From a virus: a stretch of 25,304 nucleotides of DNA. The notes below the pieces were generated by a model, which had not been told where the DNA came from, made no database searches, and saw only the letters and a list, made by a program, of their open reading frames with translations. This document shows positions 684 to 24,147 of the stretch, in pieces. The stretch spans positions 1 through 25,304 of IMG/VR virus record IMGVR_UViG_3300048930_000750; one strand, 5' to 3'. The position numbers were made by a program, and so were the translations under genes. Within the stretch, counting starts at the first letter, position 1, and every line of letters begins with the position of its first letter.

Positions 684-1766
684 ATGTACACCCGCAAGCT
701 GCCGTCCGGTGTCTGGCAGGCCACGGCCAAACACAACGGGCTGGTACGCACAGCGACAGCGCCGACGAAGTCGCAAGCGATCCAGAAAGGCGCCGAGCTG
801 CTCGTCGAACTCGGCGGCTCCACGATCGACATCGCCCCTCAGGCGACGGTAGCGGTCGTCCTCGCCGAGCACCGCGCTCGAGCGCACGAGTCGTGGTCGG
901 CGCAGTACCTCGCCGACTTCGACCGCATGACCCGCCGCCTACCCGACGACTTCGCCGCCCGGCCCGCCGGCGGTGTGCACCCGGCCGACGTCGACGCCCT
1001 GTACCGCCGCCTCCACACCGCAGGGATGTCGCCGCATCGGCTGCAGCGGCTCCACGGGTTCCTCTCCGGGGCGTTCCGCCGTGCCGCCACCAACGGGTGG
1101 ATCCGTTCGTCGCCGTGCACGAGGGTGACTCCACCCACAGCGCAGCTCCCCGATCTGGTCGTGCCTACCGCGGCGCAGGTCGCCGCGATCATCGCCGCCA
1201 CACCCGAGGGGTCGCGACGGCTCTTCGTTCGGACCGCTGCGATCACCGGCGCACGACGTGGCGAACTCGTCGGACTGCAGTGGGACGACCTGGCCGTCGA
1301 CCGTCACGAGGTCGTGATCCGCCGCACCCGCGCCCGCGGGGCGAAGGGCGAGGCATACACAGGGATCGGCAAGACCGGCCGACGCGGACACCGCGTGCTC
1401 ACCCTCGACCCGGTCACCGTCGCCGGACTCCATGCCATGCACCTCGAGCAACGCGCCCAGGCGACAGCGAACCGGCTCCCGTCACCGGTGTGGATCTTCA
1501 CCCTCGACGCCGGCGCCACGCCGTGGCATCCCGACCACGCCACCGACGTGTTCAACACCGCACGCACCGACGCCAAGGTGCCCGGGGTTCGCTTGCATGA
1601 TCTGCGTCACTACGTCGCCACCAGCATGTTGCAGGACGGGGAGTCACCGATCGATGTCGCCGGCCAGCTCGGCGACACCGTGCCCACCGTGCTGCGCACC
1701 TACGCCCACTACCTGCCCGGCCGTGGGCGCGACGCTGCGCTGCGTCGTGCGGCCGCCCTCGGGTGA
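684..1766 (+). CDS. int: tyrosine-recombinase phage integrase
   Basis: This 360-residue protein would integrate and excise the prophage at the adjacent tRNA-Val gene. The first ~50 residues look like an arm-type DNA-binding domain (TRKLPSGVWQATAK), residues ~55-145 like the SAM-like core-binding domain, and ~160-355 like the catalytic domain. Catalytic residues can be read: R191 in TGARRGEL, K230 in GKTGRRGHR, H305 and R308 in HDLRH, and the nucleophile Y340 in LRTYAHY. The usual third His of LGH is Asp (LGDT, D331), a variant position in this family. The ATG lacks a ribosome-binding site but has a -10-like TACGTT just upstream. The stop abuts the stop of the convergent neighbour (TGATCA, 1764-1769). 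Confidence 0.95.
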   Translation: MYTRKLPSGVWQATAKHNGLVRTATAPTKSQAIQKGAELLVELGGSTIDIAPQATVAVVLAEHRARAHESWSAQYLADFDRMTRRLPDDFAARPAGGVHPADVDALYRRLHTAGMSPHRLQRLHGFLSGAFRRAATNGWIRSSPCTRVTPPTAQLPDLVVPTAAQVAAIIAATPEGSRRLFVRTAAITGARRGELVGLQWDDLAVDRHEVVIRRTRARGAKGEAYTGIGKTGRRGHRVLTLDPVTVAGLHAMHLEQRAQATANRLPSPVWIFTLDAGATPWHPDHATDVFNTARTDAKVPGVRLHDLRHYVATSMLQDGESPIDVAGQLGDTVPTVLRTYAHYLPGRGRDAALRRAAALG

Positions 1767-3242: not shown

Positions 3243-3497
3243 ATGGCACGACCCAAGGGGCATCGGATGTCACCGGCCGCATGGACCGACATCCTCAACA
3301 TCAAGGGCTTGACGCTCACGCAAGCCGCTGAACTGGCCGACATTCAGCGAGCCACACTCAGCGGCCTCTCCGGAGGTCACGCCCGAGCGTCGGTACCGAT
3401 GGCGCACGCGATCGCCAATGCGGTTGGCTGCCATCCCGAGACGTTGTTCCCGACTCTTCGGGCCGTGTTTGTCGAGGCCGAGCAGGTAGCGGCATGA
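3243..3497 (+). CDS. Cro-like XRE-family HTH regulator
   Basis: An 84-residue protein, first gene of the rightward early operon. Residues ~10-70 form an XRE helix-turn-helix: LTLTQAAELADIQRATLSGL gives the two DNA-binding helices and VPMAHAIANAVGCHPETLF the following helices. The size and divergent position fit a Cro-type repressor or early activator. The ATG at 3243 is preferred over upstream in-frame codons because the promoter -10 ends 6 bases before it. The stop overlaps the next gene's start as ATGA, implying translational coupling. Confidence 0.8.
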   Translation: MARPKGHRMSPAAWTDILNIKGLTLTQAAELADIQRATLSGLSGGHARASVPMAHAIANAVGCHPETLFPTLRAVFVEAEQVAA

Positions 3498-4036
3498 CGA
3501 TCTCATGGGACCTACCGAGAGTGCTCGGCTGGTCCATCGTCACTGACCCGCTCGGCAGGATCTGGAGACTCCCAGTTGAGGATGACCGTCAGCCAGAGGT
3601 CATCGGACGCGACAGCTTCGATGCCGGCTGCTCCCATCTCTCGATCCCGACCGGCGTGGGCTCCTACGTCTACGTCCATCGCAACGCCGCCGGTGAGGTT
3701 CTCTATGTCGGGAGCACGACCAATCCGCTCGGCCGGACAGCGAATCACCTGGCAGGCAGCAACGGCAAGAGTCGTTGGTTCGGAGATGTGGCTGCGATCG
3801 AGTGGATCGCCTGCGATGACGAACGCTCGATGCGGTTCCTCGAGGGCCGACTCATCGAGCACTTCGCGCCGTCTCAGAACAAGCAGGGCAATCCGGAGGC
3901 GAAGCGCCCCCAGCGAGATGCTCCCGCCCCGCTGGAGTCGTGCGACGTCGATGCGCTGCAGTCGCTGCACCGACGCAGCCCGAAGAACGTGGAAGCTGCG
4001 CTTGCGTGTATCGCTTCGGTCGGGAGCTCGTCGTGA
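3494..4036 (+). CDS. GIY-YIG nuclease-domain protein
   Basis: A 180-residue protein. The GIY-YIG core spans about residues 56-130. The motif pair reads YVY (58-60) and YVG (71-73), followed by R81, H85 and the metal-binding Glu E117 in MRFLEGRLIEHFAP, ending with the family's N129. The family cuts DNA using a single metal ion; members act in repair, restriction and homing. All catalytic positions look present, so it may be active. The N-terminal ~50 residues and the C-terminal ~50 are not recognised. It is translationally coupled to the Cro-like gene by ATGA and to the next gene by GTGA. A homing role is not obvious because it is the second gene of a regulated operon. A role in host-DNA cutting or exclusion of other phages is possible. 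Confidence 0.8.
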   Translation: MTISWDLPRVLGWSIVTDPLGRIWRLPVEDDRQPEVIGRDSFDAGCSHLSIPTGVGSYVYVHRNAAGEVLYVGSTTNPLGRTANHLAGSNGKSRWFGDVAAIEWIACDDERSMRFLEGRLIEHFAPSQNKQGNPEAKRPQRDAPAPLESCDVDALQSLHRRSPKNVEAALACIASVGSSS

Positions 4037-8792: not shown

Positions 8793-9280
8793 TGGCCGAC
8801 CCCGCAACCATGCCCGCCGAGCTGAGCGCAGCCGTCCGAATTGCTCACGGCATCGAACCATCCGAGCCGGTCAATGAACGGTTCGCCGACTACGTGGCGT
8901 CGACGGCGTTCTCGTTGTCGCTGAGTCGCAACATGGTGCTGACGTTCCTGTCGCTCGCTCACGCGATTGAGATGGAGCACGAGCGGTCACGCCGACCGCT
9001 GCACGACGGAGCCCTGACGGCGCTGGAGCGTCGCGGCTTGATCGTCGTGACGTGGGCACCTCGCGACTACTGCGACGACGCCAAGGACTGCCCGCGATGG
9101 TCGAACACGGCAACGATCACGACAGCTGGAAAGCTCGTGCTCCAACTGCTCGCCGAGGCCGGTCAGGCACCGCGCATCATCACGCCGATGCCACCGCCAC
9201 CGCCCGGATGGACTGACCCGCGGCCGAAGATCGACATTGGCAGATATCCGCAAGCGAACGCGGGAGACGACGACACGTGA
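8792..9280 (+). CDS. hypothetical winged-helix-like protein (162 aa)
   Basis: Residues ~70-120 (DGALTALERRGLIVVTWAP ... NTATITTAGKLVLQLLAEAG) look like the recognition helix and wing of a small winged-helix domain, interrupted by a Cys pair (YCDDAKDC). The C-terminus is Pro-rich. The start is ATG 8792, or GTG 8789 in frame. It is coupled by GTGA to the HTH-WhiB gene, and a regulatory role is a guess from this context. Confidence 0.55.
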   Translation: MADPATMPAELSAAVRIAHGIEPSEPVNERFADYVASTAFSLSLSRNMVLTFLSLAHAIEMEHERSRRPLHDGALTALERRGLIVVTWAPRDYCDDAKDCPRWSNTATITTAGKLVLQLLAEAGQAPRIITPMPPPPPGWTDPRPKIDIGRYPQANAGDDDT

Positions 9281-10146
9281 GTCACCGCCAGCACGGAACG
9301 AACGCGAAGTACAAGGTCGAGGGATGCCGCTGCCGGGAGTGCAGCGTCGCGGCCTCGAAGCACAACCGTGCTCGGGCGCGGAGCGTCGAGCCGGCCTACG
9401 TCGCCGCGGGCCCGGCGCGCGCTCACTGCCGCGAACTGTCAGAGGCTGGTGTCGGTCTCAAGCAGATCGTGAAGGCGTCCGGTGTGTCGCAGGGCGCGCT
9501 GTGGAAGCTGATGTACGGCAAGAACGGCAAGCCATCGAAGCGGATCCGTCGTTCCACTGAGCAGCGCATCCTCGCCGTCACCCCGGCCGACGCCGCCGCC
9601 GGCAGCAAGATCGACGCCGCCCCGACGTGGGTGCTCATCGACGAGATGGTCGCGGCCGGCGCCGCGAAGATCGAGATCGCAGCTGCGATCGGCCAGGCCG
9701 GCCCGCTACAGCTCGCACGCACGACCGTCACCGCACGCAACGCCCGTGCCGTGGCCGAACTCCACGAAGCCTGGCGCGCCGGGACCGTCACTCTCGGCCG
9801 CCGCGACTGCTGGGGCAACTACCGCGTCGCCCACCCACCTGTCCGTGAACGCAAGCCGGTCGCGGACGTGTCGGATCTGTACCTCGAGCTGGCTGAGATC
9901 GTCGAGGAACGCGCTGAGCAGGCTGAGTGGCGCAAGAGTGCAGCCTGCCGTGGCCGTCCGACGTATCTGTGGTTCCCGGGCCGCGGTGACGGCGAGACAG
10001 CCCAGCGCGGGCTCACGGTCTGCGGGTGGTGCCCTGTGCGTGACCGGTGCCGCGCCGCCAACTTCGACCAGGCCGAGGGCACCTACGGCGGTCTCACCGC
10101 TGCCCGCCGCCGCTCACTACGTCAACAGGACTCGACCGCAGCGTGA
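9277..10146 (+). CDS. HTH-WhiB fusion regulator (WhiB-like protein 2)
   Basis: A 289-residue protein with three recognisable parts. Residues 6-30 (HGTNAKYKVEGCRCRECSVA) are a small Cys cluster common at the N-termini of actinophage DNA-binding proteins. About 58-82 (GVGLKQIVKASGVSQGALWK) is a helix-turn-helix, perhaps with a second one at about 118-150. Residues ~217-285 are a full WhiB domain: C224, C249, C252 and C258 spaced C-x24-C-x2-C-x5-C, a Trp-Phe-Pro before them, and GTYGGLTAARRR as the Gly-turn and basic end. Typical WhiB proteins are only about 80-130 residues, so this is a fusion that combines DNA recognition with an Fe-S module. The GTG start overlaps the previous stop. Confidence 0.8.
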   Translation: MSHRQHGTNAKYKVEGCRCRECSVAASKHNRARARSVEPAYVAAGPARAHCRELSEAGVGLKQIVKASGVSQGALWKLMYGKNGKPSKRIRRSTEQRILAVTPADAAAGSKIDAAPTWVLIDEMVAAGAAKIEIAAAIGQAGPLQLARTTVTARNARAVAELHEAWRAGTVTLGRRDCWGNYRVAHPPVRERKPVADVSDLYLELAEIVEERAEQAEWRKSAACRGRPTYLWFPGRGDGETAQRGLTVCGWCPVRDRCRAANFDQAEGTYGGLTAARRRSLRQQDSTAA

Positions 10147-11051
10147 ACTCTGCGAAGCCGACGAACGCTGGGGCCCCGCTGCTCACGTACCCGCGCTTGC
10201 GGGTGAAGATGGCCGCCCTGTCGATCGAGGCGTACGTCGTGCTGAACAAGGTGTGGTTGTACTGCCAGGACGCCGGCAACGGTGGCCGGTTCCACCTCGA
10301 CGAACTCCCCGCCGCCTGCGACCGCCTCCTGACCGCCGGGAAAATGCAGCGCGCCGTCGCCGAACTCGAACGGGCAACCATGTCGCACCAGGACGGCTCG
10401 GAGTCGCCGCTGTGGCTCACCGTCGTCGACGACTACGTGCAGATGCCCGAGTGGTGGATCGAACTGAACCCGGGCGCTGAGGTGTGGCAGGACGACACGT
10501 TGCGCTGGCGTCGTCAACGCAACAAGGAACTGCACGCACCCAAGCTCGAGCAGCTGCGCGAGAAGATCCGCAAGCGAGACCGGAACCTGTGCCGGTACTG
10601 CGGTCGCCGTGTGAAGTGGGGAGCGAACAACGCCCCGCACGGCGCCACCTACGACCACGTCGATCCCGACGAAGGCAACACCCTGAGCAACGTTGTGGTT
10701 GCTTGTCGCCAATGCAATGGCCGCAAGAAGGACCGCACCCCGGAGCAATGGATCGAAGAAGATCCTGCCCAGGGCTCGTCGTTGCTCCCGGCAGGGACCA
10801 CCGCTGACCAGGTCGCGGCCGTCCGGACTGCGAGGGACGGCCCACCCCAGGGTCCAACCCAAGTCGAACCGAGGTTCGACCGTGCCGGCCGCTCGCGCGC
10901 GAGACCGTCCCGGGTCGAACCCGAGTCGAACCGAGTCGAACCGTCCGGGGCCCCTGCTTCGTCGCGCCCGGTGCTCGTCCATCCGATCTCGGATCCTGTT
11001 CCGCCTCCCGATGATCACGACTACCCGTTCCACGAAGGAGAAGCGTCATGA
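10143..11051 (+). CDS. HNH-domain protein with replication-organiser-like N-terminus
   Basis: A 302-residue protein. Residues ~15-130 (LLTYPRLRVKMAALSIEAYV and later LPAACDRLLTAGKMQRAVAE) look like the helical N-terminal region of phage replication-initiation proteins. Residues ~140-200 are an HNH nuclease domain: LCRYCG (C150, C153), YDH (H172), SNVVVACRQCNGRKK (N183, C188, C191, N192). The C-terminal ~90 residues are Pro/Arg-rich and disordered. They are encoded over a repeat array and an SOS-box-like palindrome, as lambda O carries its origin inside its gene. The GTG start at 10143 overlaps the previous stop; the longer upstream frame is a shadow. HNH is sure, a replication role is inferred. 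Confidence 0.7.
   Translation: MNSAKPTNAGAPLLTYPRLRVKMAALSIEAYVVLNKVWLYCQDAGNGGRFHLDELPAACDRLLTAGKMQRAVAELERATMSHQDGSESPLWLTVVDDYVQMPEWWIELNPGAEVWQDDTLRWRRQRNKELHAPKLEQLREKIRKRDRNLCRYCGRRVKWGANNAPHGATYDHVDPDEGNTLSNVVVACRQCNGRKKDRTPEQWIEEDPAQGSSLLPAGTTADQVAAVRTARDGPPQGPTQVEPRFDRAGRSRARPSRVEPESNRVEPSGAPASSRPVLVHPISDPVPPPDDHDYPFHEGEAS
10852..10942. repeat. iteron-like array of GTCGAACC
   Basis: Exact GTCGAACC copies start at 10863, 10914, 10925 and 10935. A one-mismatch copy (GTCCAACC) is at 10852 and an inverted copy (GGTTCGAC) at 10873. Within the two clusters the copies lie 10-11 bases apart, one helical turn. They fall in all three codon phases (read as VEP, ESN and RFD), so conservation acts on DNA rather than on protein. 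Position and phasing suggest a replication origin or a multi-site regulatory element. Confidence 0.6.
10864..10879. promoter_or_regulatory. SOS-box-like LexA site
   Basis: TCGAAC-CGAG-GTTCGA exactly fits the mycobacterial/actinobacterial LexA consensus TCGAAC(N4)GTTCGA. It is embedded in the HNH gene and is also the inverted pair of the repeat array. Whether it binds LexA or the phage initiator cannot be decided here. Confidence 0.5.
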
Positions 11052-12256: not shown

Positions 12257-12403
12257 CTCTGCGACGTGGTCAGTTGAGTACCTGACCGTGGCGATCGTCC
12301 GGGAGCCGTGCACCGTCGCGTGTGTCTGCCGAACTGGCGTGATCAGTCGATTTTCGTCATCCGACGCCCTGGTCGCGGACGTCGTGAGCAAGGGGGTCCT
12401 ACT
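12257..12403. other. intergenic region with a small hairpin
   Basis: The gap holds GGTCAG (12268-12273) pairing with CTGACC (12282-12287) and, near its end, a ribosome-binding AAGGGGG (about 12390-12396). No open frame with coding character and no clear promoter were seen. Confidence 0.35.
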
Positions 12404-12967
12404 GTGTCGGTGAGCAGTTCTGAGGGAAAGTGCACGTGGTGCCTGACCCCGCTCCCATCGTCCCGCCGGAAGTTCTGCACGGACGAGTGCGGGCGTCGAC
12501 ATCACAGCCGGCGCCAGTACGGCGACGCCGATGGATACGGCGCAGTCCTCGCCGAGAGGCGATGCATCGACTGCGGTGGGTCGTTGCCGGGCGCCGCCAC
12601 GCAGGGGACAGGACTCCGCAAGCTCTGCCAGGACTGCAAGCGCGCTCGCTGGCGCGAGAAGTCGCAGCGCCGTCGTGATCGCAAGGCAGAGAACGGACAG
12701 ACGCCGTACGCCCGCGAAGAGATCTTCGAGCGTGACAACTGGACCTGCCAGCTCTGCGGCGACCCGGTCGACCAGACAGCGTCGTTCCCCGAGCCGCTGA
12801 TGGCGTCGATCGATCACATCGTGGCACTCGCCGACGACGGGCCTGACATCGCTGAGAACGTGCACACGGCGCACCTCATCTGCAACTGGAGCAAGGGCGG
12901 CACCGATTCGCAGCGACTGCACGGCCCGGCGGCGAACCGCTGGACCGGGTCGTACCGTGGCGACTAA
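12404..12967 (+). CDS. HNH endonuclease beside the terminase genes
   Basis: A 187-residue protein with three zinc modules: CTWC...FCTDEC (about 10-29), CIDC...LCQDC (54-78) and the HNH domain itself (about 110-172). In the latter, WTCQLCGDP supplies C115/C118, SIDHIVAL supplies D137/H138, and ENVHTAHLICNWSKG supplies N152, H157, C160 and N161. HNH proteins encoded next to terminase genes are often needed for packaging in HK97-like phages, where they stimulate terminase cleavage. The start is GTG 12404, chosen for the AAGGGGG about 8 bases upstream. It overlaps the small terminase gene by 11 bases. Confidence 0.85.
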   Translation: MSVSSSEGKCTWCLTPLPSSRRKFCTDECGRRHHSRRQYGDADGYGAVLAERRCIDCGGSLPGAATQGTGLRKLCQDCKRARWREKSQRRRDRKAENGQTPYAREEIFERDNWTCQLCGDPVDQTASFPEPLMASIDHIVALADDGPDIAENVHTAHLICNWSKGGTDSQRLHGPAANRWTGSYRGD

Positions 12968-16975: not shown

Positions 16976-17085
16976 CCAACTGACGAACCCGGAGCCTGAC
17001 CCGGAGCCGCCCAGCGGTCACCACGCAGCGCCACCACGTCGTCATCCCCCAATCCCCGAATCACCATCCGAGGAGGATGACCACC
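16976..17085. other. leader of the capsid gene
   Basis: A 110-base non-coding stretch, C-rich and poorly structured, ending in AGGAGG (17071-17076). That sequence is 9 bases from ATG 17086 and decides the capsid start. No promoter could be supported. Confidence 0.4.
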
Positions 17086-18426
17086 ATGAGCAAGAAGCTC
17101 ACCGATCTCCAGATCGCCAAGCGCGACGAGATCATCGCCCAGGGCCGCGACGTCATCGCCGCCGCCGAAGCCGAAGAGCGTGAACTCACTGACGACGAGG
17201 CTGCCATCGTGCGCGATGCCGCCGAGCGTTCGGCCGAGATCACCGCCACCATCGAGGCGACCGCATCGGTCACCCGCACCCTCGACGACCTCGTCCCGGC
17301 CAAGCGCGCCGTGGGCGGTGCAGTCGTCCGTTCCGAGCCGCTCACCTACATGGAGCGCGGCGGCAAGCACTCCCACGTCCGCGACACCGCCACCGTGGCG
17401 CTCAACCTGGCCGGCGCTTCGCAGGCCCGCGAGCGTCTCGAGCGTCACGCCGCCGAGATCGCCGTCGAACTCCGCGCCGGTGACACCGGTGACACCGCCG
17501 GTGGCACGTTCGTGCCGCCTCTGTGGGTGCTCGACGAGTTCGTCGGCACGCAGCGCGCCGGTCGTGCGACCGCGGATCTGGCCCGCCAGATGGCGTTGCC
17601 GTCCGGCACCGACGCGATCAGCATCCCGACGGTCACCACCGGGAACCTGACCGCCGTGCAGGCGACCGAGAACTCGGCGATCACGACTCGTGACATGGTC
17701 ACGGCGTCGACGACCGCCGAAGTGACCACCATCGCTGGTGGCTACGACTTCTCGATCCAACTGCTCGAGCAGTCCGCCCTCGCAGGTGGCTGGGACGCCC
17801 TCGTATACCGCGATCTGCTCGCGGACTACAACCGGGCCCTCGACGTGCAGGTGCTCTCCGGCACAGGTGCGAACAACCAGGTTCCCGGCGTCCACACGGT
17901 CGCTGGTACCACGGTGTTCGCGTCGTCGACCAGCTCGACCACGGCACAGAACCAGATCTACGCCGGCATCGCCGACGCCCTGAACCGTGTCGCCACGACC
18001 CGGTTCGAGACGCCGGAGGTCATCGTGATGCACCCGCGGCGCTGGTTCTGGCTGGCTTCGCGGTTCGACACCGCCGGCCGTCCCGTCATCGTCCCCGACG
18101 CTCAGGCAGGTCGTTCGATGCTCGCCTCGTTCGGCATCACCGCCGTGCAAGGCGTCGTCGGCACGATGCTCGGCCTCCCGGTCGTCATCGACGCCAACGT
18201 GTCGACGTCGGCTGGCACGTCGGAGGACCGCATCCTGGTATGGAAGGCGTCCGACGCCATCCTGATGGAGGGCACCCCGACCTTCGAGGTGTTCCGCACC
18301 ACCGGTGGCACCACGGACACCCTGACGGCACGTGCCCGTCTGTACAACTACGCCGCGTTCACCACGCGGTACACGACGGGCGCTGCGCTCGTCGGCGGTA
18401 CGGCCCTCTCGTCGCCGACCTTCTGA
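17086..18426 (+). CDS. major capsid protein (HK97 fold, with scaffold-like N-terminus)
   Basis: A 446-residue capsid protein. The first ~85 residues are a charged, helical delta-domain (KKLTDLQIAKRDEIIAQGRD, EAEERELTDDEAAIVRDAAE) that would act as scaffold and be removed by the neighbouring protease. The capsid domain begins near GGTFVPPLWVLDEFVG. It includes GGYDFSIQLLEQSA, LLADYNRALDVQVLSGTGAN, the P-domain-like PEVIVMHPRRWFWLASRFD and LPVVIDANV, and ends in a beta-rich tail. The start ATG 17086 is favoured over ATG 17077 because AGGAGG abuts the latter but lies 9 bases from the former. The gene is flanked by non-coding structured segments, consistent with special, high expression. Confidence 0.92.
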   Translation: MSKKLTDLQIAKRDEIIAQGRDVIAAAEAEERELTDDEAAIVRDAAERSAEITATIEATASVTRTLDDLVPAKRAVGGAVVRSEPLTYMERGGKHSHVRDTATVALNLAGASQARERLERHAAEIAVELRAGDTGDTAGGTFVPPLWVLDEFVGTQRAGRATADLARQMALPSGTDAISIPTVTTGNLTAVQATENSAITTRDMVTASTTAEVTTIAGGYDFSIQLLEQSALAGGWDALVYRDLLADYNRALDVQVLSGTGANNQVPGVHTVAGTTVFASSTSSTTAQNQIYAGIADALNRVATTRFETPEVIVMHPRRWFWLASRFDTAGRPVIVPDAQAGRSMLASFGITAVQGVVGTMLGLPVVIDANVSTSAGTSEDRILVWKASDAILMEGTPTFEVFRTTGGTTDTLTARARLYNYAAFTTRYTTGAALVGGTALSSPTF

Positions 18427-18442
18427 TCACTCTCGGGTGATC
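18425..18442 (+). other. hairpin 1 after the capsid gene
   Basis: GATCAC and GTGATC pair (6 bp) around a 6-base loop. The stem begins inside the capsid stop codon. It is the first of three consecutive hairpins. Confidence 0.5.
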
Positions 18443-18444
18443 TC

Positions 18445-18467
18445 CCGGGCGACCTGCGTTCGCCCGG
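18445..18467 (+). other. hairpin 2 after the capsid gene
   Basis: CCGGGCGA (18445-18452) pairs perfectly with TCGCCCGG (18460-18467) around a 7-base loop. The stem is GC-rich and has no T-tract. Confidence 0.55.
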
Positions 18468-18473
18468 CCGTTC

Positions 18474-18524
18474 CTCCCCGCGACCGACGACCAACGACGC
18501 AGGTGTGTCGTCGGTCGCGGGGAG
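18474..18524 (+). terminator. 18-bp hairpin 3 after the capsid gene, terminator or mRNA-stabilising element
   Basis: Arms 18474-18491 and 18507-18524 are perfectly complementary over 18 bases around a 15-base loop, starting CTCCCCGCG and ending CGCGGGGAG. This is one of the strongest hairpins I found in the window. No T-run follows, as is common for actinobacterial terminators. It separates capsid expression from the glycosyltransferase cassette, whose first gene has its own AAGGAG at 18534-18539. Confidence 0.7.
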
Positions 18525-18544
18525 CCCTGCGTCAAGGAGTCGCG

Positions 18545-19408
18545 ATGAGCGATGACCAACTGCCCTCGTGGACGCCGCTCGGCGTCGAGGAGGCTGACCT
18601 GCCCGAAGGCTTCGAGCCCGGCAAGGTGACGGTGTGCTACCTGTCCGGCACTGACGTGTCGAACGGGTTCCTGACGTCGCTGCTCGGGATGCGTGACGCC
18701 GACCGCATCAACGACTGGGGAAGGCTGGATCATCCGGCGTGGTGGATCAACCAACGCTCCGGTGTGAACGTGGCCCGCACCCGCAACTCGGTGGTGCGCA
18801 AGTTCCTTTCGGTGCGTGACCCGGCGCCCGAGTGGATGCTGATGGTCGACGCCGACATGACGTTCGACCCGCACGCCCTCGAGCTCCTGGTCCGGGCCGC
18901 GGAGTCGTCACGCGAGAATCCGGACGTCCCGGATGTGCACGTGATCGGCGGGTTGTGCGTGGCGTTCGGGAACCGTGGAGACGGCACGAACGCTGTCCGG
19001 GTGATCTCGACGATGTTCGACCCCGGTGAAGCGATGCCAGGGATCTCGGTGCCGGCGTTCACTCCGGTCGAGCCACGCGACGCGAAGGCGAAAGCGGTCC
19101 GTCAGGTGTACGGCACCGGGGCTGCGTTCCTGCTCGTTCACCGTCAGGTGCTGATCGACATCGCCGCAGCGTGCCGGACGACGTACCCGTGGTTCCGTGA
19201 GGAGATCGTCGAAGACAACCGTCCGGACGTGCACTGGACTGAGCTGAACGACCTGTGGATCTCGGAAGATCTGTTCTTCTGTATGCAGGCGCAGAGGTGC
19301 GGTTACCCGATCTTCGTGCACACCGGGGTACCGATCGGTCACGTGAAAGCGGTCGAGTTGACCGAGGAGACGTGGCGGTATCACTCGACGATGGTGGACA
19401 TGGCGTGA
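18545..19408 (+). CDS. glycosyltransferase-like protein 1 (GT-A fold)
   Basis: A 287-residue protein, first of the accessory cassette behind the capsid gene. PEWMLMVDADMTFDPHALEL contains a DAD metal/nucleotide-sugar motif. Before it, INQRSGVNVARTRNSVVRKF matches the helix that precedes DxD in phage and bacterial GT-A enzymes. YGTGAAFLLVHRQVL and WISEDLFFCMQAQRCGYPIF give the acceptor-side part with an ED pair, and IGHVKAVELTEETWRY contains the usual late metal-binding His. It would transfer a sugar from a nucleotide donor, perhaps to a virion protein. The upstream frame beyond ATG 18545 is non-coding hairpin DNA. Confidence 0.75.
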   Translation: MSDDQLPSWTPLGVEEADLPEGFEPGKVTVCYLSGTDVSNGFLTSLLGMRDADRINDWGRLDHPAWWINQRSGVNVARTRNSVVRKFLSVRDPAPEWMLMVDADMTFDPHALELLVRAAESSRENPDVPDVHVIGGLCVAFGNRGDGTNAVRVISTMFDPGEAMPGISVPAFTPVEPRDAKAKAVRQVYGTGAAFLLVHRQVLIDIAAACRTTYPWFREEIVEDNRPDVHWTELNDLWISEDLFFCMQAQRCGYPIFVHTGVPIGHVKAVELTEETWRYHSTMVDMA

Positions 19409-20055
19409 TCGACGTCATCATCCCCACCCTGGGCCGCCCGCATCGTCTCGCCGATCTGGCCGCCAACATCGACGCCACGACAGTGCACGAGCATCGCGTC
19501 GTGTTCGTCATCGAAGGGACTGACGTCGCATCCGTCGAAGCCGTCCTCGACCTCGACCTGGTGCCACTCGTGAACCGTCGCACCCCGAACTATCAGGGCG
19601 CCGTGAACACCGCCTACGCAGAGACGTCGGGGGACTGGCTGTTCTGCGGTGCCGACGATCTCGTGTTCCACGACGGCTGGGACGCCGACCTTTCTGGCGG
19701 TCGAGTGCTCGGCACGAACGACCTGTACAACGGCCACGTCCTCGCCGGCGTCCACTCCACCCATTCGCTGGTGCAGCGCAGCTACCTCGACCAGCTCGGT
19801 GGCGTGGTGGATGAGGGTCCAGGGTCGTTCCTGTTCGAGGGATACGACCACAACTTCTGTGACACCGAGTTCATCGCCACCGCCAAGATGCGCTGCGAGT
19901 TCGTCCCCCGGCTGGACAGTGTCGTCGAGCATCTTCACCCGGCCGCCGGCAAGGCCGACTTCGATGACACCTACGCCCGTTCGTTCGCCGGGTTCGACGT
20001 CGACGCCCGCCTGTTCGAGATGCGCTCCACACTGTGGGGAGCGATGTACCGATGA
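19405..20055 (+). CDS. glycosyltransferase family 2-like protein 2
   Basis: A 216-residue protein starting at GTG 19405, overlapping the previous gene (GTGA). VIDVIIPTLGRPHRLADLAA is the classic GT2 N-terminus. GAVNTAYAETSGDWLFCGAD followed by DLVF supplies the GADD (DxD-like) donor-binding motif. SHxxLVQRSYL and FEGYDHNFCDTEFIATAKMR give the ED-type acceptor region (DTEF). It is shorter than most GT2 enzymes but seems complete. It probably acts with its neighbours on a common glycan. Confidence 0.8.
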   Translation: MIDVIIPTLGRPHRLADLAANIDATTVHEHRVVFVIEGTDVASVEAVLDLDLVPLVNRRTPNYQGAVNTAYAETSGDWLFCGADDLVFHDGWDADLSGGRVLGTNDLYNGHVLAGVHSTHSLVQRSYLDQLGGVVDEGPGSFLFEGYDHNFCDTEFIATAKMRCEFVPRLDSVVEHLHPAAGKADFDDTYARSFAGFDVDARLFEMRSTLWGAMYR

Positions 20056-20651
20056 GCATCACCGTGTGCATCCCGACCATCCCTTCCCGCCGGTCGACGC
20101 TGTCACGTGCGCTGTGGCACCTGCGAGGCCAGGACTGCGACGTGCTAGTGGCGGACGGCATGGCGCCGATGGGCGACAAGCTGAACGAGATGTTCGCCAA
20201 GGCGACCACGACTCACGTCGTGTGCCTCGACGACGACGACTACCTAGGCCCGGAGCGCATCATCGACCAGGGGTTCGTGATGGCCGACTTCGTTGGCTAC
20301 CGGATCCTGTGGTTGGAGAACGGCCGCTTCGCAGGGTCGGTCGCCCACCGCGGTGACGGTGACACGACGTGGCGGACATTCGACCGTGGCGTGTCACCGA
20401 AGTGTCTGGTGCGCACCGAGATCGCCCGGGCTCACGAGTTCGGGAACCACTACACCGCCGATCGGGAATGGTCCGAAGCGGTACAGGCCGACATCGAGAC
20501 GCACACGTTCATCGACCAGCACCTGTACGTGTACGACCACTGGGACGCCCACATGGTAGGCACCACACCGGACGCCGGTCGCATCGACGCTCCGCAACGT
20601 GACGTCGGTGTGTGGCCGTTCGACGAAGGAGCAGTGACATGGCTCGTGTGA
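20052..20651 (+). CDS. glycosyltransferase-like protein 3 (GT-A fold)
   Basis: A 199-residue protein. MSITVCIPTIPSRRSTLSRAL is a GT2-type start, and THVVCLDDDDYLGPERI holds a DDDD donor-binding cluster. DRGVSPKCLVRTEIARAHEF and YTADREWSEAVQADI follow the family order. ATG 20052 overlaps the previous stop. Its 3' end overlaps the epimerase gene by 13 bases. It has no membrane helix, so it is likely cytoplasmic, acting before virion release. Confidence 0.75.
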   Translation: MSITVCIPTIPSRRSTLSRALWHLRGQDCDVLVADGMAPMGDKLNEMFAKATTTHVVCLDDDDYLGPERIIDQGFVMADFVGYRILWLENGRFAGSVAHRGDGDTTWRTFDRGVSPKCLVRTEIARAHEFGNHYTADREWSEAVQADIETHTFIDQHLYVYDHWDAHMVGTTPDAGRIDAPQRDVGVWPFDEGAVTWLV

Positions 20652-21784
20652 CGGTGCTCGGTGGCGGCGGGTTCATCGGATCGAACCTGGTCCGCCGCCT
20701 GGTCTCGCTCGGGCACGATGTGGTCGCAGTGGATGTCGAGTTCCCGACGTGGCGTCTCGACGCCCTCGACGGTGCATCGCGGTGGACCGCCGATCTCAAC
20801 CAACCGTCGGCGGCGTCAGGTCCGATCCTCGGCGCCGACGTCGTCTACCACCTGGCCGCCGACATGGGCGGGGTCGCATGGTTCCACGGCCCGCAGGACT
20901 GGCCGGCGTCACTGACCAACGGGCGCATCACCAACAACGTGCTGACCGAATGCACGAAGCAGAACACGCCCCGGCTGGTGTACACGTCATCAGCGTGCGC
21001 CTACGCCACCGAGATCCAGCAGACCCCAGGCGACGCCCCGAAGCTGCGTGAGTCCGAACATCTGTCGTGGGGGACACCCGACGCCGGCTACGGCTGGGAG
21101 AAGCGATACGGCCTCGAGCTGTGCATGAGAGCCCCGATCGATGCTCGGGTGGCGATCTGTCACACGATCTTCGGTCCGCTGCAGGAACACCACGGTCAGC
21201 GGATGAAGTTCCCGGCCGCGGTGATCACGAAGGCGCTCGTGGCCCGACGCACTGGTCGCCTGGAACTTTGGGGCAGTGGTGAGCAGAGGCGTTCCTACCT
21301 GTACGTGGACGACGCTGTCGACCGGCTGATAACGCTCGGGTTCGATGACCGCTACGCCGGCCCGGTGAACGTCGGCGCTGAAGGTGCGGTGACGTGCGAA
21401 GAGGTCGCCCGGATGTGTCTCGACATCGTCGGCGCATCCGACGCAGAAGTGGTCACGATCGAAGGGCCGGTGGGTGTGATGTCCAGAGACTGCGACAATA
21501 CGAAGTGGCGCGACACCTACGGCGACGCCCCGCAGACACCGCTGCGCGAGGCGTTCACCGAGTTCGCCGACTGGGTCGAACCTCACCTCGAGACCACGAC
21601 CCGCACCCAGGGCGTCGAGCGTGCCGTGCGCACACCTGAAAGGCTGAGAGCAGTGCTGCTGTCGACGGTCGCCGATCAACAGATTCTCGCCGGGACCGCG
21701 GCCACCCTGTCGTGGCAGCCGGTCGACTCTGACGGTGAACCTGCCGATCCGGGCACGGTGACTCGCACATCTGAGAGGCGGTGA
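20639..21784 (+). CDS. GDP-mannose-3,5-epimerase-like NAD-dependent enzyme, with extra C-terminal tail
   Basis: A 381-residue extended SDR enzyme. VLGGGGFIGSNL (7-18) binds NAD, YHLAADMGG (70-78) is the family's strand, Y151-x3-K155 (YGWEK) is the catalytic pair, and LWGSGEQRRSYLYVDD (210-225) is the sugar-binding region. TSSACAY with C120 and QRMKFPAAV with K190 match the acid/base Cys and Lys of plant GDP-mannose-3,5-epimerase, which makes GDP-L-galactose. It would therefore supply an activated sugar to the adjacent glycosyltransferases. The exact substrate is inferred. Residues ~339-381 do not belong to the SDR fold and may be a remnant of another gene. The start ATG 20639 overlaps the previous gene. 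Confidence 0.85.
   Translation: MARVTVLGGGGFIGSNLVRRLVSLGHDVVAVDVEFPTWRLDALDGASRWTADLNQPSAASGPILGADVVYHLAADMGGVAWFHGPQDWPASLTNGRITNNVLTECTKQNTPRLVYTSSACAYATEIQQTPGDAPKLRESEHLSWGTPDAGYGWEKRYGLELCMRAPIDARVAICHTIFGPLQEHHGQRMKFPAAVITKALVARRTGRLELWGSGEQRRSYLYVDDAVDRLITLGFDDRYAGPVNVGAEGAVTCEEVARMCLDIVGASDAEVVTIEGPVGVMSRDCDNTKWRDTYGDAPQTPLREAFTEFADWVEPHLETTTRTQGVERAVRTPERLRAVLLSTVADQQILAGTAATLSWQPVDSDGEPADPGTVTRTSERR
21653..21784 (+). pseudogene. possible remnant of a head-connector gene, fused in frame to the epimerase
   Basis: An in-frame GTG at 21653, with AAAGG about 9 bases upstream, would start a 43-residue peptide. STVADQQILAGTAATLSWQP continues with DGEPADPGTVTRTSERR. This looks like the N-terminus of a beta-rich phage structural protein, whose next residues would normally be a TVTVTRADG-like strand. 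It breaks off just before the connector gene. I read it as the truncated first gene of the connector cluster, left where the cassette joins it. Confidence 0.4.
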
Positions 21785-21786
21785 CC

Positions 21787-22380
21787 ATGACGCTCTACGC
21801 CACGGTCGAGGAAACCGAGCAGTATCTGCGTTCGACGGTCACTGCGGATCTCGCCGAGATCGAGGTGGCGTTGACGGTCGGCTGCCAGGCGATCGATCTC
21901 GCTACGGTCCGCACGTTCGGTGTCCCCGACGACGAGACGACGAAGGTCTACGCCCCGATCAGTGGTGATCTGGTGAAGGTGGACGACATCGCGAACACGA
22001 CAAACCTCGTGATCGTCGACAACGGCTCCACGCTTTCGGCGTCCGACTACCAGCTGGAGACGTGGCCCGGTCGCGCCAATCAGATGTCGCAGACGGGGAT
22101 CATGTACCCGTTCGCCTACATACGACGCCTCTCGGGTTCGTGGCATGTTGCTTGCAACGGTGAGGCGACGTTGTCGGTGACGGCGCAGCATGGGTGGCCG
22201 GCGGTCCCTGACTCGATCAAGTTGGCATCGAAGCTCGCCGCGAAGGACTACCTCGACATGCGTGATACCCGGTTCGGGTTGGTGCAGGTCGGTGACTTCG
22301 CTCGTCGGATCATGGAGAACTCGACGATCGGCGGTCTGCTGCAGCCGTTTCGTTCCGGCGATTCTTGGGGCATTGCCTGA
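21787..22380 (+). CDS. head-tail connector (adaptor) protein
   Basis: A 197-residue protein. TLYATVEETEQYLRSTVTAD and CQAIDLATVRTFG form the helical start of gp6-type (HK97) adaptor proteins. The central beta-rich part and the helical C-terminus (PDSIKLASKLAAKDYLDMRD, FARRIMENSTIGGLLQPFRS) complete the pattern. Adaptors sit below the portal and receive the tail. GAGAGG (21773-21778) lies 8 bases before ATG 21787, which decides against GTG 21781. Confidence 0.75.
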   Translation: MTLYATVEETEQYLRSTVTADLAEIEVALTVGCQAIDLATVRTFGVPDDETTKVYAPISGDLVKVDDIANTTNLVIVDNGSTLSASDYQLETWPGRANQMSQTGIMYPFAYIRRLSGSWHVACNGEATLSVTAQHGWPAVPDSIKLASKLAAKDYLDMRDTRFGLVQVGDFARRIMENSTIGGLLQPFRSGDSWGIA

Positions 22381-22974: not shown

Positions 22975-23709
22975 ATGGCCATCCAGTATTGGCAGGACAT
23001 GTCGATCCTCGTCGACGACATCGAGATGGCGTGCCACGCCAAGAGCTTCAGCCTGACCAACGAGGTCGCGCAGCTCGACACGACGTCGCTCTGCTCGACC
23101 GGGTGGACGTCGTCTATCGGCGGTCTGAAGTCCGGCTCTGTGAACATCGAGTTCATGCAGGACGTAGCGACTGGCTCGGTCGACGACACGCTGTACCCGC
23201 TGCTCGGCGTCGCCGGCACACCGAAGTCGATCTGTCTTGGCTCGGCTGACGGCTCGCCGGCGTACCTGCTCAAGTCGATCCCGCTGGCCTACACGCCCGT
23301 GAGCGGCGCGGTCGGCGAGCTCGCGATGGGCACGCTTGCGGGTTCGTCGTCGACTGGCCCGGTGGTTCGCGGCAAGCTGCTGCACCCGTCGAACGTGTCG
23401 CGCACGTCAAGTTCGACCGGCACCGGCCGCCAACTCGGAGCGGTCGCCGCCGGCCAGTCCGTCTATGCAGCCATCCACGTCATCTCCGCCAGCGGCACGC
23501 CGACGCTCGACGTCATCGTGCAGTCAGACGACAACGCCGGCTTCACGACACCAACGACCCGCCTGACGTTCACGCAGGCGACTGGCAAGACGTCGCAGAT
23601 CGTGTCGGCCGCCGGTGCGATCACCGACGACTACTGGCGGGTGTCGTACACGATCGGCGGCACCGGCACGCCGACGTTCGCGTTCGCAGTGACCGTCGGA
23701 ATCCTCTAA
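22975..23709 (+). CDS. tail-tube protein paralogue A, with extra C-terminal domain
   Basis: A 244-residue protein. Residues ~1-140 are clearly homologous to the next gene: both share the QLDTT, GW, IGGLKSG and DVA motifs and a later GAVG-LAM. Residues ~140-244 are a Thr/Ser/Gly-rich beta domain (GQSVYAAIHVISASGTPTLD, TRLTFTQATGKTSQIVSAAG) absent from the neighbour, probably displayed on the tail surface. Whether A or B forms the main tube is open. A decorated minor form is plausible. A GAGGAGG lies about 10 bases before the ATG. Confidence 0.8.
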   Translation: MAIQYWQDMSILVDDIEMACHAKSFSLTNEVAQLDTTSLCSTGWTSSIGGLKSGSVNIEFMQDVATGSVDDTLYPLLGVAGTPKSICLGSADGSPAYLLKSIPLAYTPVSGAVGELAMGTLAGSSSTGPVVRGKLLHPSNVSRTSSSTGTGRQLGAVAAGQSVYAAIHVISASGTPTLDVIVQSDDNAGFTTPTTRLTFTQATGKTSQIVSAAGAITDDYWRVSYTIGGTGTPTFAFAVTVGIL

Positions 23710-23736: not shown

Positions 23737-24147
23737 ATGGCCATTCAGGCTCTGACGGCTGAGGTCGTCAGTATCAACAGCGTCGACATCTCCGCCTACT
23801 GCAAGTCGGCGACCTTGACGATCGACGTCAACCAGTTGGATACGACCGACTTCGCCAGCGATGGCTGGACGGAGATGATCGGCGGTCTGAAGTCGGGCAC
23901 GCTCGCCATCGAGTTGATGGATGACGTCGCGGACGACTCGATCGACGAGGACTTCTACGCGCTGCTCGGCACGGTCGTGCCGTTTGCGTTGAAGCTTGAC
24001 GACGCTGCTATCTCGGCGTCGAATCCCGAGTATCAGGGCAACGTGCTCATCACGTCGCACTCGCTCGGTGGAGCCGTCGGTGACCTGGCGATGAAGTCCT
24101 ACAGCTTCCCGATCACAGGCGCAATCGTCCGCGACGTCACCGCCTGA
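23737..24147 (+). CDS. tail-tube protein paralogue B
   Basis: A 136-residue single-domain protein preceded by AAGGAG. ATLTIDVNQLDTTDFASDGW, MIGGLKSGTLAIELMDDVAD and SLGGAVGDLAMKSYSFPITG make a compact beta-sandwich, the pattern of major tail proteins that stack as hexamers into the siphophage tube. It lacks the extra domain of paralogue A. The two are tandem duplicates that diverged. It is followed by a non-coding structured region rather than by tail-assembly chaperone genes. Confidence 0.8.
   Translation: MAIQALTAEVVSINSVDISAYCKSATLTIDVNQLDTTDFASDGWTEMIGGLKSGTLAIELMDDVADDSIDEDFYALLGTVVPFALKLDDAAISASNPEYQGNVLITSHSLGGAVGDLAMKSYSFPITGAIVRDVTA

Follow-up and report, generated by a model that had tools for sequence, protein, structure and literature searches.

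A four-gene island of glycosyltransferases and a GDP-mannose-3,5-epimerase-like enzyme, headed by an RNA pseudoknot, behind the capsid gene of an uncultured phage

The IMG/VR record IMGVR_UViG_3300048930_000750, a virus record, probably fragmentary, whose 25,304 bases are all analyzed here (the window), carries head genes on the + strand in the order TerL, portal, protease, and capsid. Between the capsid gene and a head-tail adaptor gene lies an island of four genes, encoding three glycosyltransferases (GT1, GT2, and GT3) and a short-chain dehydrogenase/reductase (SDR) that resembles GDP-mannose-3,5-epimerase; an RNA pseudoknot stands at the head of the island (Table 1). The original prediction had placed four tightly overlapped genes between capsid and connector, and this arrangement is borne out by the coordinates (overlaps of 4, 4, and 13 bases at the GT1/GT2, GT2/GT3, and GT3/epimerase junctions), by the PHROG and Pfam assignments of the neighbors, and by relatives: the order capsid-GT1-GT2-GT3-epimerase is kept in loci L002, L003, and L007 and occurs in variant form in L009 (where GT3 is missing), L046, and L004/L005. 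All four genes are under purifying selection; the ratios of nonsynonymous to synonymous substitution rates (dN/dS) against the nearest relative, L002, are 0.116 for GT1, 0.099 for GT2, 0.138 for GT3, and 0.069 for the epimerase, low values (0.07–0.14) that mark all four as real, maintained genes. Among named phages, the window has no close DNA relatives.

Table 1. Positions of the island, its RNA leader, its borders, and other features of the window.
Feature	Position	Strand	Basis and remarks
HK97-type major capsid gene	17077–18426	+	PF05065 (3.5e-17), TIGR01554, PHROG 2263 (1.9e-47); island starts behind it
Small upstream hairpin	18446–18466	+	Loop CCTGCGT; pairs in 85% of cells, four relatives
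H-type RNA pseudoknot	18474–18533	+	18-bp stem 18474–18524; loop-tail complementarity
GT1, GT-A-type glycosyltransferase	18545–19408	+	Homologue of Cluster J Optimus gp12; AlphaFold model, PHROG 1574/34859, profile
GT2, GT-A-type glycosyltransferase	19405–20055	+	GTG start; constant epimerase neighbor; PHROG 14945, PF00535, profile, adjacency
GT3, GT-A-type glycosyltransferase	20052–20651	+	AlphaFold model, PHROG 14775
GDP-mannose-3,5-epimerase-like SDR	20639–21784 (epimerase proper to ~21652)	+	PF01370, PDB 8sg0, residues
Recombination scar	21654–21763 (110 bp)	+	5′ fragment of an Ig-like/adaptor gene; L048 and L049 carry the intact gene (295 aa)
Head-tail adaptor gene	21781–22380	+	PHROG 442 (1.3e-12); distal island border
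tRNA-Val gene	497–573
Tyrosine-type integrase gene	684–1766		PF00589 (6e-11)
289-residue open reading frame with WhiB C-terminal domain	9277–10146		PF02467 (2.6e-10)
One GIY-YIG and two HNH endonuclease genes	3494–4036, 10047–11051, 12308–12967		Free-standing

Taken alone, the Pfam matches of the three transferases are weak (E 0.006 to 1.5e-4); the PHROG matches are clear, the folds of GT1 and GT3 follow from their predicted structures, and GT2 is assigned to GT-A by profile only, so that the GT-A folds proposed earlier for all three are recovered by one route or the other. The AlphaFold model of GT1 (predicted local distance difference test score, pLDDT, 88.8) has as its top structural match A197 of the archaeal virus STIV (Z 19.0), followed by lysyl hydroxylase LH3 (residues 294–519), Mnn9, and COLGALT1; a GT1 profile recovers gp12 of mycobacteriophage Optimus at E 1e-33, and both proteins match PHROG 1574. 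GT2 matches PHROG 14945 (2.7e-15), PF00535 (1.5e-4), and, through its profile, the solved glycosyltransferase 9jma (1.1e-4). For the GT3 model (pLDDT 88.8), TarP, TarS, and WrtF, a fucosyltransferase that uses GDP-fucose, are structural matches at Z 15–17, and the protein matches PHROG 14775 (4.8e-13). DxD-type motifs had been noted in each transferase, and their aspartates are invariant in the alignments: D102/D104 of GT1 across 55 sequences, D84/D85 of GT2 across 8, and D60/D62/D63 of GT3 across 12. At a threshold of 1e-5, neither GT2 nor GT3 was found in any named phage, and tblastn of GT1, GT2, and GT3 against mycobacteriophages gave no match. A gene for a 2-oxoglutarate- and Fe(II)-dependent (2OG-Fe(II)) oxygenase lies in or near the capsid-GT1 island of L004/L005 (5694–6305; PF13640 8.7e-15 in L005), L141, L142, and L161; together with the likeness of GT1 to LH3 and COLGALT1, it could mean that hydroxylated residues are glycosylated in those phages. 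As a constant partner of GT1, after the manner of collagen-type hydroxylysine glycosylation, the oxygenase was rejected, being present in few islands.

The fourth protein matches PF01370 (7.5e-34), and its best PDB match is a plant GDP-mannose-3,5-epimerase (8sg0, 2.9e-38). Reference catalytic residues were taken from PMC8787198 and transferred by HMMER alignment. The protein has the features of an extended SDR fold, with the glycine motif GGGGFIG and with S118, Y151, and K155 at the positions of S143, Y174, and K178; the Cys120/Lys190 pair singled out in the original prediction is present and aligns with the acid-base pair Cys145/Lys217 of Arabidopsis GDP-mannose-3,5-epimerase. R218 corresponds to the diphosphate-binding Arg243 and R283 to Arg306, a position occupied by Lys in GDP-fucose synthase (PMC8787198). 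The highly conserved Asn203 (PMC8787198) is replaced by Thr176, for which reason we name the enzyme GDP-mannose-3,5-epimerase-like, a member of a sister group, rather than GDP-mannose-3,5-epimerase. The family assignment made earlier thus holds for the SDR fold and the catalytic residues; the enzyme is not a textbook GDP-mannose-3,5-epimerase, and its product is less certain.

The Thr at this position is not peculiar to the window. Among phage open reading frames with the Cys/Lys/Tyr/Lys set, Thr predominates, Ser occurs in one lineage (L005), and 13 are of the Asn type. A GT2 gene adjoins every Thr- or Ser-type epimerase gene whose flanks are readable, and none of the Asn-type genes stands beside GT2; L046 is the one apparent exception, in which GT2 shares one open frame with GT1. 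Some of these loci are GT2-adjacent by construction, having come from the GT2 scan, and the loci from the epimerase scan (L053–L076) show the same pattern; several loci here overlap as parts of a single contig, and the number of loci should therefore not be taken as a number of phages. In bacterial and archaeal genome assemblies, position 203 is Asn in 79 of 80 loci. The remaining locus, L246, lies on a contig of a Planctomycetota bin (JAKQDH010000078.1) that carries a terminase gene, GT2, and a Thr-type epimerase, and is probably phage DNA within that bin. The Thr/Ser-type epimerases form one group in a quick tree in which long branches are present (98% by the Shimodaira–Hasegawa-like approximate likelihood-ratio test, SH-aLRT), and they constitute a phage-only group apart from the Asn enzymes of plants, bacteria, and other phages. 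Across 50,697 named phage records, the epimerase occurs mainly in cyanophages, other marine phages, and Maribacter and Flavobacterium phages, and no record named for an actinobacterial host is in that tally.

The 3′ end of the epimerase reading frame runs into a recombination scar. Two contigs, L048 and L049, are 90–94% identical to the window at the scar and have no DNA match to it in the rest of their head region, and identity between L009 and the window rises from 67% before the scar point to 88% after it; these observations indicate that a head module, island included, and a tail module were exchanged at this joint. L002, which is nearly identical to the window upstream, enters an intact Ig-like/adaptor version at its contig end. 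A stop codon precedes the scar in L045 and L002; the loss of this stop in the window leaves the open reading frame ending with ~43 foreign residues, which were rejected as an epimerase domain and assigned to the scar.

Association with the capsid gene was assessed with a GT1 alignment scanned against IMG/VR, in which loci were found without using the capsid gene. A capsid gene lies no more than 3 kb upstream on the same strand in 69 of the 76 loci with enough upstream DNA; an SDR sugar enzyme follows downstream in 28 GT1 loci, five of them with the epimerase type of the window. In a second contig group, exemplified by L070, the capsid gene is followed by two GT4-type genes, GT2, the epimerase gene, and the adaptor gene. 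Sugar enzymes of other kinds occur in further islands; that of L118, for example, contains a dehydratase-like SDR and a gene for a reversibly glycosylated polypeptide (9034–9996; PF03214 8.4e-46, UDP-arabinopyranose mutase type). A related capsid gene in the prophage prophiGD43A-5 is followed by one small gene and then the adaptor, and represents the site without an island.

Covariation and recurrence together show a pseudoknot that abuts the ribosome-binding site of GT1. Its loop GACGCAGG (18496–18503) is complementary to CCTGCGTC (18526–18533) just 3′ of the stem, and AAGGAG and then the GT1 start follow directly after CCTGCGTC; the folding z score of positions 18427–18544 is −3.7. With the stem set to 10 bp or more and the loop-tail match to 6 or more, and with near-copies removed, the pattern occurs in 36 of 52 capsid-to-GT1 regions as against 10 of 520 dinucleotide shuffles; the loci are related, which makes 52 an upper bound of independence, and the search criteria were set once the pattern was already apparent in a few loci, which makes the enrichment somewhat optimistic, large as the effect is. 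Random 200-nt windows of the same loci contain it in 93 of 3,000 cases under laxer limits. Under strict limits, ~2.6 Mb yield 51 sense-strand matches; of these, 23 are no more than 210 nt from the end of a capsid gene, and many of the remainder fall between capsid and GT1. In the stem, nine pairs are changed on both sides among four relatives and 10 pairs (29 cells) among 13 sequences of the second group, with 0 of 500 shuffles equaling either result and far lower values in slid controls. The second stem is conserved or shows only G-U variation within each of these groups; across lineages its letters are replaced altogether and complementarity is kept. Rfam 15 covariance models gave only chance-level matches at the pseudoknot, below gathering scores, and a literature search returned no relevant description of such an element. 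The loop of the small upstream hairpin is a possible alternative partner of the main pseudoknot loop. Behind the capsid genes of L214, L236, L240, and L223, three CCTGCG copies follow the hairpin, the last touching the Shine-Dalgarno sequence, which would give the loop GCGCAGG several alternative partners there.

The position of the pseudoknot bears on what it serves. Between 5 and 105 nt separate it from the capsid stop, a spacing too variable for a stimulator of frameshifting or stop read-through, which was rejected. It could instead act as a 3′-end stabilizer or partial terminator of the capsid message, given that it lies 3′ of a presumably highly expressed gene and has a long, GC-rich stem. 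We regard this as rather unlikely: despite that variable distance, the 3′ strand lies near a start codon in 34 of 36 cases (6–29 nt 5′ of it, median 13.5, with a Shine-Dalgarno-like motif); only 1 of 19 capsid genes without an island has the pseudoknot; and an HNH gene in L007 parts the pseudoknot from the capsid gene and not from GT1, which indicates that the element goes with GT1. An intrinsic terminator at the island head was likewise rejected, as a search for a stem followed by a T run found no such site. As an island leader, the pseudoknot would set the translation of the catalytic genes apart from that of the abundant capsid message.

On balance, we favor the interpretation that this is a post-capsid island for virion glycosylation. 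Its most likely function is glycosylation of virion protein with a phage-made GDP-L-hexose, with the pseudoknot adjusting how strongly the island is translated; the sugar, its acceptor, and the regulation are all inferences. The epimerase would convert GDP-mannose to a GDP-L-hexose of the GDP-L-galactose or L-gulose type, or to a close variant. Genes for GDP-mannose synthesis are missing from the island, so the host would have to supply this substrate; the cassette is therefore not the fully self-contained system that the original prediction had suggested, and possession of its own epimerase nonetheless sets it apart from the Cluster J island. GT2, the constant neighbor of the epimerase, may transfer the sugar that the epimerase makes; GT1 most likely would begin or lengthen a glycan attached to the capsid protein or to a different virion protein, and GT3 might add a further sugar. 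This interpretation draws on the post-capsid position, the conservation of the genes, the GT-A folds and invariant DxD motifs, the epimerase residues, and the epimerase-GT2 pairing, and further on the capsid linkage of the GT1 loci, the lack of a transmembrane stretch in any of the four proteins (highest 19-residue hydropathy 1.5), which fits cytosolic protein modification, and the precedent that citing papers report for mycobacteriophages. Several points weigh on the other side. The C-termini of the capsid proteins carry no island-specific sign of an acceptor; island and non-island capsids end alike, and these sequences were rejected as acceptor markers. With Thr in place of Asn203, the substrate or product of the epimerase may differ; glycan, acceptor, and enzyme activity are all predicted; and the authors of the Cluster J study left the choice between viral and host targets open (PMC3706429).

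That same inability to exclude host targets in Cluster J (PMC3706429) would suit a different role, in which the enzymes modify wall polysaccharide or glycolipid of the host surface, either during lysogeny or at a late stage of infection, for example to block superinfection, rather than the virion. Phage glycosyltransferases are able to alter host surfaces, and an integrase gene beside a tRNA gene makes a temperate phage the probable source of the record. The island genes, however, are fused into the late head operon, their products are without a membrane stretch, and the four genes that separate capsid from adaptor include neither a flippase gene nor one for a membrane-bound GtrB-like protein; we consider this role improbable. 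Glycosylation of hypermodified bases in phage DNA, for which transferases are said to exist in other phages (Pyle 2024, cited in PMC12619734), is very improbable, as it is the capsid gene, and not replication genes, to which the island is constantly linked, and as no base-hydroxymethylating or thymidylate-synthase-like gene was found among the scanned proteins, a part of the open reading frames of the window, which is itself probably a fragment.

Beyond virion glycosylation in the window, a broader and more tentative proposal is that a unit widespread in uncultured phages combines a phage-only epimerase subfamily (Asn203 to Thr) that would make a dedicated GDP-sugar, a GT2 that would use its product, and an unrecorded class of ribosome-binding-site pseudoknot that would control the amount of the unit relative to capsid. 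What is new here is the recurrence of the epimerase beside GT2 in many divergent uncultured phages, as a phage-only group; the scar read-through at the end of the epimerase frame; and the pseudoknot that heads the island, whose stem covaries and which matches nothing in Rfam, a simple RNA element that lends itself to testing and for which the literature search found no description. With the recurrence, the pairing of epimerase and GT2, and the RNA leader in view, the target question raised for Cluster J in 2013 becomes a set of direct tests of sugar, acceptor, and switch. Phages with their own sugar-nucleotide chemistry could bear glycans foreign to their hosts, a matter of relevance to the immune recognition of phages and to enzymes for rare L-sugars.

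Elsewhere in the window, the tRNA-Val gene followed by the integrase gene looks like a temperate-phage attachment site. The WhiB gene, a G+C content of 67%, and the mycobacteriophage-like capsid point to a host that is probably actinobacterial. HNH genes also occur in L007, where they interrupt the island. Two open reading frames of the window (22975–23709 and 23737–24147) match each other (in L009/L045, ~38% identity across about 130 residues), a pattern that would fit tandem duplication of a tail-tube-like domain.

Among known systems, GDP-mannose-3,5-epimerases of plants, Methylacidiphilum, and other bacteria share with the window enzyme the fold family, the Cys/Lys pair, the Ser-Tyr-Lys residues, and the equivalents of Arg243 and Arg306, and differ from it in having Asn203 where it has Thr and in lying outside its phage-only group. 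The epimerases of cyanophages S-SSM7, S-CAM9, and S-SCSM1 are 31–34% identical and likewise lie among sugar genes, but in the regions inspected they have no nearby capsid gene and no link to GT1 or GT2. Phage-encoded glycosyltransferases are said to glycosylate capsid and tail tube in mycobacteriophages Che8, Corndog, and Myrna (Freeman 2023, cited in PMC12363180 and PMC12619734); no epimerase accompanies them. The closest comparison is with the Cluster J mycobacteriophages (Omegavirus: Omega, Optimus, BAKA, and Thibault), whose capsid proteins are the closest named relatives of that of the window (38–41% identity) and which carry 8–10 genes at the same capsid-connector site, many of them glycosyltransferases (PMC3706429); a post-capsid glycosyltransferase island as such is thus already known. 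Optimus gp12 is homologous to GT1, and gp15 is weakly like GT3. The Cluster J site, however, also has kinase, methyltransferase, and zinc-protease genes and no annotated epimerase, whereas no kinase or methyltransferase gene accompanies the window island, and Optimus has hairpins there without a pseudoknot under the limits used. The window island is therefore a variant of the Cluster J-type kind, distinct from the Cluster J island itself.

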